This document shows, piece after piece, positions 35,678 through 37,791 of a stretch of DNA of 37,791 nucleotides. Source of the stretch: Prolixibacteraceae bacterium (lineage in GTDB: Bacteria > Bacteroidota > Bacteroidia > Bacteroidales > Prolixibacteraceae); assembly GCA_028282195.1 (NCBI GenBank), contig JANQII010000332.1, positions 1 to 37,791 of the forward strand. The letters are read 5' to 3'. The translations under genes and the position numbers were made by a program. The notes under the pieces were generated by a model, which saw only the letters and a list, made by a program, of their open reading frames with translations, was not told the origin of the DNA and searched no databases. Numbering within the stretch: position 1 is the stretch's first letter; each line of letters starts with the position of its first letter.

Positions 35678-35707
35678 TAAAAAAGAGAACCGATTAGCTC
35701 CATTCTC
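35678..35707 (-). terminator. Terminator following tRNA-like fragment 1
   Basis: On the minus strand GAGAA and TTCTC pair around a loop and are followed by six T residues (35679-35684). It directly follows the tRNA-like 3' end, the same order as at 37514-37620. Confidence 0.55.
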
Positions 35708-35712
35708 CCTGA

Positions 35713-35775
35713 TTAGTAGCGGGGGCCGTCCCGATTGCTATCGGGATTGAACCGACGACCTTTGGGTTAAGAGCC
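35713..35775 (-). pseudogene. tRNA 3'-half-like fragment 1 with palindrome in the T arm
   Basis: The minus strand reads GGCTCTTAACCC (anticodon arm, CTT at the anticodon), AAAGGTCGTCGGTTCAA (variable loop and T arm) and GGCCCCCGCTA (acceptor 3' strand), the form of an elongator-Met-like tRNA with CAT changed to CTT. The palindrome TCCCGAT/ATCGGGA (35729-35746) is inserted in the T arm. There is no matching 5' acceptor or D-stem strand, so it is not a working tRNA. It borders a DedA-like pseudogene and has a related fragment in the same orientation at 37555-37620. Confidence 0.7.
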
Positions 35776-35776
35776 T

Positions 35777-36316
35777 AAAGAATCTGTTACCTCCAGGATT
35801 AGTACCTTTCACACTTGCGTTATTTTTTACATTCTTTGTCTTTTGCTATCAGTTGTTTAGCTTGCCTCCTCCTGTTCAAATTATTGAAAGTTCAGAGTTA
35901 TTATATGAGAAATATGGATACATAGCCTTAGTGATTGCGGCTTTTATAGAAGGAATTTTTATTTTCCTGGTTCTTTAGTCATTTTGATCGCGGTAGTTGC
36001 ATCTGGTAAATCATCGGAAGCTTTGGCTTTCATAGGATTTTATTCGTTGATTGGATTTTCAATATCATCAATTCTGATTTTTTTAAAAAAGGGAGGTATA
36101 GTTTTTACAAGGTATTATATATTTCTTGGCAAAAAAGATTTAGTAACAAATATGGAAAAGAAACTATCAAAAAATAAATTTCGCACATTATTTTTTTCTC
36201 CGATTATTAATAAAGTAGATTTCAGTGATTCACATCAAGATTGGTATATAGTTGGAGTATTAGTCTTATGGGGATTTGTAAATATTATTATTGATCAAAA
36301 GATTAGAAGAGGTTAA
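35777..36316 (+). pseudogene. DedA-like membrane protein gene, frameshifted and 5'-truncated
   Basis: Two overlapping frames form one protein. The first reads NLLPPGLVPFTLALFF...ELLYEKYGYIALVIAAFIEGIF and stops at 35975-35977. The second supplies YFPGSLVILIAVVASGKSSEALAFIGFYSL and runs to 36316. Joined around 35955-35966, in an AT-rich homopolymer stretch, they give the FIEG...PGSL pattern of DedA/VTT membrane proteins. No start codon is present; the 5' end runs into tRNA-like fragment 1. A TTG at 35984 would give a 110-residue remnant. The family call is tentative; the frameshift is well supported. Confidence 0.6.
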
Positions 36317-36345: not shown

Positions 36346-37185
36346 CTATTCTTTTCCTTTGATCTTCTTTTGTCTTTTGTAATCCAAAAAATTCTGTGGC
36401 GTAACCACATCTTCTCCTGTTTTTGATTCTATTTCTTTCCGTGCAACTCCGGCTACATTCCCACCTTCTTGTGCAACCTTTTTATTTTGGCTTAAGGTCT
36501 TTGGTTTTTTCTTTTTTGAGATTTCTGTAGTAGAAGCCTCTGCAAGCATGTTCAAAACCAGTTCAAGGTTTGTCATATTATCTCGCAAGTTTTCTTTTTT
36601 CAGGTTTTTGAGCTTTTTATATTCTTTGGTAGTATGCCCCGCCCAGGCTTTAGTAATTTCATCAGTTAGGATCGCATATTCCAATCCTTTTTTTACACCC
36701 CTTGCATCCCATTCATCCGTCAGTTCTTTTCGGACTTCTATACTTTTCAAACGCTGGTTGATCCACTCTTTGGAATACCCCTTTTTCAAGTAGGTTTCCA
36801 TAGCCCTGTGAAAAGCCAGTTCGGGGTCTTCTGTTTCCTCAATGCGTTCATACCCGACTTTAGCAAGCCAGAGTTTAAAAGGTTCAGCTTTGGAAGAGGG
36901 AATGGACTGGATTAGGCGTAAAAGCTGTTCGGTATCCGCTACATCGGTCATTCTCATTTTGCCGTCAGTAGCTTGCATTTTCAACTGGCTACAATTTGTA
37001 GCCACTTCACTTCCCTCCTTTTTCAACCTAGTTTTTAAAACACTCCAGTATTTTTTGGGATTATTACTTTCCGTCAAAACACCTACGACATCAATAATTG
37101 AAAAATACCATTTCTCTGCTTCATCGTCCCAATGAGCACGGATTTGGCTTTCGTTAAAAAGTTTTATGGCTGTTTCTTTCGTCAT
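36346..37185 (-). CDS. Bro-N/phage antirepressor-like protein
   Basis: A 279-residue protein. The N-terminal ~100 residues (IKLFNESQIRAHWDDEAEKWYFSIIDVVGVL, then NPKKYWSVLKTRLKKEG and TDVADTEQLLRLIQSIPS) match Bro-N/antirepressor domains; the rest (KGYSKEWINQRLKSIEVRKELTDEW, ITKAWAGHTTKEYKKLK) is the conserved C-terminal part of the chromosomal Bacteroidetes versions. A basic tail follows. It would bind DNA or a repressor. No other phage gene is nearby, so it is a solitary, perhaps domesticated or leftover, gene within the tRNA-fragment-bounded segment. Confidence 0.8.
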   Translation of the reverse strand: MTKETAIKLFNESQIRAHWDDEAEKWYFSIIDVVGVLTESNNPKKYWSVLKTRLKKEGSEVATNCSQLKMQATDGKMRMTDVADTEQLLRLIQSIPSSKAEPFKLWLAKVGYERIEETEDPELAFHRAMETYLKKGYSKEWINQRLKSIEVRKELTDEWDARGVKKGLEYAILTDEITKAWAGHTTKEYKKLKNLKKENLRDNMTNLELVLNMLAEASTTEISKKKKPKTLSQNKKVAQEGGNVAGVARKEIESKTGEDVVTPQNFLDYKRQKKIKGKE

Positions 37186-37513: not shown

Positions 37514-37542
37514 AAAAAAGCCGCTTCTCTCGAACCGGCTTT
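37514..37542 (-). terminator. Terminator following tRNA-like fragment 2
   Basis: AAAGCCG and CGGCTTT with inner TTC/GAA pairing; on the minus strand a T-run follows (to 37514). It lies 13 bases beyond the tRNA-like 3' end. Confidence 0.8.
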
Positions 37543-37554
37543 CCCTTTGTTTAT

Positions 37555-37620
37555 TTAGTAGCGGGACCGGACTTGAACCGACGTCCGGAAACTGCCGGAT
37601 ATGGATCCAACGAGCTACTC
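37555..37620 (-). pseudogene. tRNA 3'-portion-like fragment 2
   Basis: The minus strand reads GAGTAGCTCG (D-arm 3' side), GTTGGATCCATATCC (degenerate anticodon arm), GGACGTCGGTTCAAGTCC (T arm) and GGTCCCGCTA (acceptor 3' strand). The 5' acceptor and D-stem strands are absent and the anticodon arm cannot form a normal 7-base loop, so it is not a functional tRNA. The GIY-YIG stop codon (37615-37617) lies inside it and a terminator follows. It shares ttagtagcggg and ttgaaccgacg with fragment 1, in the same orientation. Confidence 0.7.
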
Positions 37621-37791
37621 TTGTTTTAGAATTTTTTTTCGGATAAAATTCCTTCCCTGATGTGATTTGAGTTCTTTTTCCCGCTGGAGAGTGAGCTAAT
37701 GGTTTCCCGGAAAATTCTTCTAAGTGTATGATTTTCCATGGGCGAAATCTTTTTGTCCATCCTTTGGGAAGATTGTTATGGGCAAATAACC
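37615..37791 (-). pseudogene. GIY-YIG nuclease gene, 3' part, frameshifted; runs off right edge
   Basis: From the right edge one minus-strand frame reads LFAHNNLPKGWTKRFRPWKI then IHLEEFSGKPLA, the C-terminal half of small GIY-YIG (UvrC-like) nucleases. The matching family end LTLQREKELKSHQGRNFIRK, finishing ILKQE, is found in another frame from about 37694 and stops at TAG (37615-37617). The change of frame near 37691-37696 (gctcac) indicates a small indel. The catalytic GIY-YIG motif lies outside the window; the conserved Glu-containing REKELKS is present. Without correction, the first frame continues through the tRNA-like sequence and terminator. Confidence 0.7.

Follow-up and report, generated by a model that had tools for sequence, protein, structure and literature searches.

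The tRNA remnant that follows a broken GIY-YIG nuclease gene at the end of this DNA probably belongs to a mobile system of small GIY-YIG genes and palindromes, one branch of which lives on tRNA genes; the copy seen here would be a decayed unit of that branch. The observations behind this reading are the anatomy of the units, their repetition, the polymorphism of their sites, their fidelity to GIY-YIG lineages, the conserved active site of the nuclease and its association with hairpin DNA. From these sequence patterns we infer that the units have been mobilised. The window, that is, the whole stretch of 37,791 nucleotides analysed here, is the entire contig C63, and its parent assembly comprises 5.84 Mb in 348 contigs.

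A decayed unit at the end of the window

On the minus strand, the end of the nuclease gene runs into a tRNA 3' portion, with the stop codon inside the D-arm, and then into a terminator (Table 1), as the first-pass annotation had correctly described. The TAG at 37617-37615 is both the stop of the unshifted GIY-YIG frame and the first bases of the D-arm sequence TAGCTC. Because the window is a whole contig, the gene is truncated by the contig end and is thus incomplete at 37791. The fragment alone gave no match in Pfam; we call it GIY-YIG because the protein identity given in Table 1 extends over residues 28-78 of an intact gene on contig C264. Compared with that intact copy its frame is shifted, with a 4-bp length difference, which bears out the earlier impression of a frameshifted, decaying copy. 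The tRNA-like stretch is considered to be a remnant and not a gene, since ARAGORN reported zero tRNAs in the window and Rfam gave no match there at its gathering score. Five sub-threshold Rfam matches in the window resembled chance and were rejected. The remnant itself is not a chance resemblance, because it can be aligned to the unit on C264 and because remnants of this kind cluster strongly near GIY-YIG genes. The name tRNA-Met(CAT) is used throughout, without an initiator label. A Bro-N gene is located between this remnant and a second one, and is possibly cargo. Among the seven genomes of the same genus, matches to the Bro-N gene were found only in the window's own genome (G000), on three contigs.

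Table 1. Positions of the features discussed in the window
Feature	Position	Strand	Basis or remark
GIY-YIG nuclease gene, 3' part, frameshifted, cut by contig end	37618..37791	-	67% protein identity to C264 copy
Degenerate tRNA-Met(CAT) 3' portion, from D-arm 3' side to acceptor 3' strand	37558..37617	-	aligns to C264 remnant
Palindrome with one mismatch, replacing anticodon-arm 3' side	37584..37599	-	tRNA site common to 17 other loci
Intrinsic terminator-like hairpin and T-run	37514..37542	-	sequence unlike C264 terminators
Bro-N gene, PADLOC PDC-S13 candidate defence gene	36346..37185	-	E 3.1e-140
Second tRNA-Met 3' remnant, missed in the first-pass annotation	35716..35778	-	
TCCCGAT...ATCGGGA palindrome within second remnant	35729..35746	-	
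Terminator of second remnant	35679..35710	-	resembles tRNA-Met terminators of C264

The intact counterpart of the window unit was identified on contig C264 by a nucleotide-level search of the window's own genome. The order there is three tRNA-Met-like copies, an intact tRNA-Met gene, a terminator, an intact GIY-YIG gene, a tRNA 3' portion, a terminator and, near the contig end, the beginning of another GIY-YIG gene. The intact gene encodes 83 residues and matches PF01541 (E 3.3e-16). Given that C264 carries an intact unit of the same kind, we regard the window copy as a further decayed unit, and the window feature looks like one decayed unit of an apparent tandem array at a tRNA-Met gene. The two contigs overlap (54 bp, 98%), and it is suggested that they may be adjacent in the genome. 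In tblastn searches with the window's next gene for the right flank, nothing was found in the genus's seven tRNA-Met loci, the majority of which extend just 0.6-1.2 kb past the tRNA, or in L091, L101, L090 and L081.

The three tRNA-Met-like copies on C264 (L003, 1435-1857) are degenerate 125-bp tandem units that lack a GIY-YIG gene and contain two different palindromes; they are possibly non-autonomous units. Elsewhere in G000, several tRNA genes begin less than 180 bases from the contig start (C42, C58, C109, C125 and C177), as if tRNA-adjacent repeats broke the assembly at those starts.

Occupied and empty sites within the genus

The seven genomes of the genus all have a tRNA-Met next to one and the same divergent M23 peptidase gene. 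Adjacent to this tRNA-Met there is one unit and a broken-off second in G000, one unit and the start of a second in G004 (two in the PF01541 search of 41 genomes), and one unit in G005. In G001, G002 and G003 the terminator is present, and no GIY-YIG gene or remnant was seen in the 700 bp to the right of tRNA-Met. The tRNA-Met sequence of the occupied G005 is identical to those of the empty G001, G002 and G003, so that occupation leaves the tRNA unchanged. The first-pass annotation had suggested a mobile unit that targets tRNA genes. The part that stands is that the unit is repeated, apparently mobile and tied to tRNA; classical homing into the tRNA is the part that does not, given the identity between G005 and G001-G003. 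It had also held that an intact tRNA gene at this site in close relatives would speak against its interpretation. Such a gene is indeed present, yet the anatomy of the unit includes an intact tRNA next to the remnant.

We also compared the T-arm and acceptor end of the remnants with the host tRNAs. In four of the four genomes that were comparable, the best match of the remnant was the tRNA of the host itself, with 2, 0, 0 and 2 differences against 5, 6, 1 and 3 for the next best. This indicates that the remnant was copied from, or kept like, the host tRNA gene; fresh duplication and gene conversion would fit alike. In G041 (71% complete; L148), palindrome-bearing remnants were observed on both sides of tRNA-Met, with no GIY-YIG gene in the 700 bp shown.

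tRNA genes and remnants beside GIY-YIG genes

We analyzed 89 GIY-YIG matches in 80 loci, among the matches listed from the PF01541 search of the 41 genomes, with 20 uvrC genes as controls. Four small GIY-YIG matches (G000:C94, G000:C112, G031:C87 and G040:C122) were left out, and G014:C79:89669, which lies inside a 1205-codon frame, was kept among the 89. An intact tRNA was present within 500 bp of 38 of the 89 listed matches and of none of the 20 uvrC genes, and in 34 of these 38 the GIY-YIG gene was downstream of the tRNA on the same strand. Counted per locus, 33 of 80 had a near intact tRNA, and in 32 of the 33 all near tRNAs were on the GIY-YIG strand. When a library of 65 tRNAs drawn from the loci on which it was tested was used, 36 tRNA fragments were detected within 400 bp of GIY-YIG genes (80.0 kb), all on the GIY-YIG strand, compared with 1 at more than 1 kb (664.5 kb) and 0 around uvrC (229.2 kb). 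With 16 tRNAs from other places in the window's genome added (81 tRNAs), the counts were 42 near, 1 far and 0 at uvrC, so that the enrichment check proposed in the first-pass annotation turned out strongly positive. In total, a tRNA or remnant was present at 42 of the 89 listed matches and undetected at 47.

Two mirror layouts were found, one of intact tRNA, GIY-YIG gene and 3' remnant, and the other of 5' remnant, GIY-YIG gene and intact tRNA (Pro, Arg and Ser). The units repeat at a spacing of 294-623 bp with the GIY-YIG gene as the sole gene inside; this leaves room for that gene only, and an integrase is absent from the unit. For a test across the phylum, the C264 protein was compared with 296 genomes, of which 153 gave matches, by rules fixed beforehand. 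Among the 29 loci outside the window's genome that best matched the tRNA-Met-type enzyme, 24 had an intact tRNA within 500 bp and 21 matched a pre-set palindrome expression.

In 10 further array stretches, ARAGORN tRNAs together with tRNA fragments were found in 8 and not in L387 and L393. In L385, on a single-contig genome, one tRNA-Met is followed by five GIY-YIG units, and a remnant with a palindrome comes after every one of them. In L386, also on a single-contig genome, one tRNA-Asp precedes five units, each of them followed by a palindrome, and three tRNA fragments passed the BLAST cut. L387 (G094:C34) contains eight tandem GIY-YIG genes, each followed by one or two TCCGCC palindromes, and an intact tRNA was absent within the 3.7 kb examined. 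On C33 (L010/L056), a GIY-YIG gene lies between two tRNA-Leu(CAA) 3' remnants, and the contig also contains a tRNA-Leu(CAA) gene at a distance of about 17 kb.

Palindromes in the remnants and elsewhere

A perfect inverted repeat of at least 6 bp was present in or beside 30 of 37 tRNA fragments. A few of these repeats are the tRNA stems themselves, and the remaining ones are typically palindromes of 14-20 bp within a tRNA arm. A regular expression, built from the first loci after inspecting them, matched a palindrome within 260 bp at 26 of 35 tRNA-type loci, against 0 of 20 uvrC genes and 7 of 577 distant windows; the listed palindrome was absent from the other 9 loci. At one site of tRNA-Met, directly after the anticodon-loop sequence TCATA or TCTTA, the palindrome was found in 18 of 44 stretches, which represent 17 loci in 17 genomes because L364 and L391 are one locus. 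The palindromes in the remnants begin directly in tRNA sequence, and a GTC tag at the foot is absent.

The palindromes are also dispersed. The window's genome contains 71 copies of TCCGGCANNTGCCGGA (control, 0) and 84 copies of TCCCGA-N2-8-TCGGGA (control, 9). Among the 41 genomes, TCCGGCANNTGCCGGA reached at least 10 copies only in G000 (71), G018 (32) and G004 (11), all of which possess the tRNA-Met unit, the palindrome of G004 being a variant. In G005, which also bears a unit, its single copy is within the unit itself. The TCCCGA palindrome count correlated with the small-GIY count (rho 0.73, n = 41 genomes, uncorrected for kinship; the latter counts were taken from the loci, with corrections for three genomes). 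This palindrome was also near 15 GIY-YIG matches, 5 of them in non-tRNA clades. We considered a general rule that dispersed palindromes sit inside other hairpins. An outer stem of at least 5 bp was found for 11 of 36 TCCGGCA palindromes against a null of 2.1%, with several being copies of one repeat, and for 2 of 16 TCCCGA palindromes against 2.5%; in view of the redundant TCCGGCA copies and the TCCCGA result, the rule was dropped. In L172, L178, L318, L319, L322, L325 and L331, the TCCGGCA palindrome was seen in the apical loop of apparent GTCAT-type REPs.

The GIY-YIG enzyme and its lineages

A tree was built from 76 of the 89 GIY-YIG domains after partial or stop-containing ones were dropped; it rests on 86 columns, and many of its forks are weak. 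Mapped on this tree, affiliation (tRNA, ATTCCC palindrome or none; 66 rows, tandem copies collapsed) required 6 changes compared with a shuffled mean of 25.2. tRNA identity (29 rows) required 14 changes compared with 21.9, where 12 is the least possible because there are 13 labels. For both, 0 of 500 shuffles were as low as the observed value; tRNA type thus follows the GIY-YIG tree.

The dN/dS values of the seven pairs computed were 0.03-0.19, four of these being rough with dS above 1.3, and the reading frames look as though they are under selection. Six residues are the same in all 28 representatives (Tyr6, Tyr17, Gly19, His31, Thr39 and Glu63), and Arg27 is almost as constant. The predicted structure of the tRNA-Met-type enzyme (mean pLDDT 95.6) had its best fold match in Slx1 (6seh; 38% identity, TM 0.67-0.69), and the match to I-TevI was far weaker (E 0.47). 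A profile of the class-A proteins, which are described below, had its best sequence matches in UPF0213 (1zg2 and 1ywl) and UvrC (1yd6). The modelled enzyme resembles Slx1, a branched-DNA type of nuclease.

Sister lineages between tagged palindromes

The flanks of sister GIY-YIG lineages without tRNAs contain other repeats, which we grouped into family A (ATTCCC palindromes), family B (GTTCAGG), family C (TCATTGCGAG) and family I (terminal inverted repeats CCCTGTCAAATA). In the first set, windows within 300 bp of GIY-YIG genes (near; 65.2 kb) were compared with those beyond 1 kb (far; 664.5 kb). Family A was found 13 times near and once far, family B 12 and 3 times, family I 9 and 0 times, and family C, which is weakly enriched, 17 and 26 times; uvrC gave 0 for each. 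Each family occurs beside members of one GIY-YIG clade, one clade per family. Two more ATTCCC-flanked matches contain stops and are outside the tree.

These patterns had been written after seeing the flanks of the first set and were therefore tried on 79 new, named loci, obtained by scanning contigs with class A, B and C proteins (80 loci, from which L216 was dropped as it was taken to be the same contig as G015:C158). About 30 of the 79 titles lie outside Bacteroidota, namely in Alphaproteobacteria, Rickettsia, Nitrospirae, Chloroflexi, Cyanobacteria, candidate phyla and others, and many are MAGs. In this set (near 67.2 kb, far 118.4 kb), pattern A occurred 89 times near and 13 far, at 45 of the 79 loci, pattern B 9 and 0 times, pattern T 5 and 1 times and pattern C 4 and 4 times. 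Family I had zero matches in the 79 loci, and 28 of the 79 fitted none of the fixed families. We also scored flanks without any pattern, taking in 78 of the 79 named loci and 80 of the 89 first-set matches. Of the 78 named loci, 43 had inverted flanks with a score of at least 14, compared with 3 of 468 control placements. The first set had inverted flanks at 17 of 80 against 0 of 468 and direct flanks at 45 of 80 against 6 of 468.

Hairpins with a GTC tag were present at 60 of the 79 named loci, with 140 within 150 bp of the gene (23.6 kb) and 46 beyond 500 bp (145.4 kb); in non-coding DNA alone, the densities were 7.60 and 1.43 per kb. The tags face outwards, by 50 to 15 upstream and 53 to 22 downstream, and an outward-facing pair surrounds the gene at 37 of the 79 loci, compared with 1 of the 89 first-set (home-family) GIY-YIG matches and 0 of 20 uvrC genes. 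A readable tag, tested as GTC, was present in 20 of 28 upstream and 28 of 34 downstream family-A copies. The REP pairs of class-A enzymes include the GTCATTCCCGC type, in environmental Bacteroidota.

One GIY-YIG clade is bounded by inverted repeats of the type ACCCTGTCAAATA...TATTTGACAGGGT (L084, L089, L092, L094 and L095, with a variant seen by eye in L083), and its members are seemingly inserted inside genes at conserved motifs, as an IS-like one-gene unit. By eye, we take the genes holding them to be those for a Y1 transposase and a GxxExxY protein.

Possible mechanism and other explanations

A unit consists of one small Slx1-like GIY-YIG gene and a tRNA remnant, usually with a palindrome in an arm and often with a copied terminator. 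If the mobile-system reading is correct, the nuclease would recognise the hairpin or cruciform of its own palindrome, or a tRNA arm, and would nick or cut there. Repair from a unit-bearing copy would then insert the unit, or multiply it in tandem, by an intact tRNA or another palindrome. As the unit would land next to an intact tRNA, the host would be unharmed. REPs are thought to be non-autonomous offspring of RAYTs, and the dispersed palindromes may likewise be non-autonomous offspring of the GIY-YIG units. Since the remnant palindromes have no GTC tag and tagged pairs occur at 1 of 89 first-set matches, the link between the tRNA and GTC classes rests on the GIY-YIG tree and the layout. A wider proposal stands in our judgement at even chances: the CGTC-tagged repeats seen in many bacteria (dRS3, RPE and relatives) would have dedicated mobilisers after all, in the form of small Slx1-like GIY-YIG nucleases, a counterpart of the RAYTs based on an unrelated nuclease. 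A Bacteroidota branch would then have adopted tRNA genes, in which a palindrome that takes the place of part of one tRNA arm serves as the element end, and would build tandem arrays there.

We also considered a classical free-standing homing endonuclease that cuts the unit-free tRNA gene and is copied in by double-strand-break repair. The GIY-YIG fold, the tracking of the GIY-YIG tree by tRNA type and the presence/absence polymorphism in one genus would all agree with it. However, the intact tRNA by a unit is the same as at empty sites, and hence the unit does not split a recognition site inside the tRNA; moreover, tandem arrays of near-identical units are unexpected for homing, and the sister lineages sit between palindromes. 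Given that the adjacent tRNA is the same with and without a unit, homing on its own was judged unlikely, although a site spanning the tRNA and its downstream flank is still compatible. A minimal integrative element, inserted at the tRNA 3' half by a tyrosine integrase acting in trans so that the tRNA is restored and a 3' remnant (attR) displaced, is quite unlikely. Its units would have to recur every 294-623 bp and hold just a GIY-YIG gene, some of them leave tRNA 5' fragments (Pro, Arg and Ser), the choice of tRNA tracks the GIY-YIG tree, and the palindrome lies at a fixed tRNA-Met site. Nevertheless, the classical integrase layout is intact tRNA, element and tRNA 3' fragment, and the same layout is seen here, with the tRNA end duplicated on the far side of the insert; in addition, a candidate defence gene lies between the two remnants of the window.

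The least probable of the readings weighed here is a passive by-product, in which tRNAs were duplicated in tandem, a GIY-YIG gene with some other function (e.g. repair) hitch-hiked, and unrelated palindromes landed in the dead tRNAs. The dispersal of the palindromes (71 and 84 copies in the window's genome), the TCCCGA palindromes beside non-tRNA GIY-YIG genes and the G041 remnants, with no GIY-YIG gene in the 700 bp shown, would be natural under such an account. It does not predict the same tRNA-Met palindrome site in 17 loci of 17 genomes, the lineage fidelity over 13 tRNA labels, the occurrence of families A, B, C and I each beside one GIY-YIG clade, or the correlation between palindrome and GIY-YIG counts, for which kinship was uncorrected.

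Significance and comparison with known systems

REPs tagged with CGTC have been described with an 8-9 bp stem starting with AT, a 4-5 base loop and a CCA tail; they occur in several bacterial phyla, and some are equated with the dRS3 and RPE (RPE-4/6) repeats (Di Nocera et al. 2013, PMC3733652). According to that survey, a dedicated transposase is apparently absent for these REPs, and GIY-YIG is unmentioned in its text. In the accessible part of the 2025 RepRanger paper (PMC12306157), CGTC is named in the reference list only. Our literature search, with preprints and most subscription papers outside its scope, found no report tying GIY-YIG to tRNA remnants or REPs in bacteria. A candidate enzyme inside inverted pairs of CGTC-like repeats, with a different repeat family next to each of several GIY-YIG clades, makes the question of the missing transposase directly testable. 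If the proposal is true, the tRNA branch would represent a novel type of genomic parasite, a unit of roughly 300-600 bp with one gene, which occupies essential tRNA genes and leaves them unbroken. The fusions of GIY-YIG genes to tRNA sequence in Bacteroidota, and their tRNA remnants in tandem, would be accounted for as well.

Family A resembles the CGTC REPs: its foot bears GTC, its 8-bp stem begins with AT, its loop has 4 bases, and a CCA tail is often present too (by eye, uncounted). The tRNA-type palindromes differ in lacking the tag. Like the RAYT/REPtron, the GIY-YIG units have just one small gene, with inverted palindromic repeats on either side that also occur elsewhere in the genome, and part of the non-tRNA class (37/79 named loci) has the inverted REP pair. 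Nevertheless, the RAYT is a Y1 HUH transposase, its tag is different, and the GIY-YIG system has a branch that uses tRNA genes; we do not class the units as RAYTs because the enzyme differs. With free-standing GIY-YIG homing endonucleases of the I-TevI type they have in common the catalytic domain, the active-site residues and the presence/absence polymorphism, but their fold is closest to Slx1, the tRNA is uninterrupted, and they form tandem arrays with a palindrome-bearing tRNA remnant. Since an interrupted target was not found, they are not classed as homing endonucleases either. A tRNA-site integrative element likewise has a duplicated tRNA end beyond the insert, but it carries an integrase, and we do not place the units there because they encode none. 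From the Slx1, UPF0213 and UvrC nucleases the units are distinguished by a lone 83-residue domain tied to palindromes and tRNA remnants, which is presumably too short to include the additional domains that Slx1 has.
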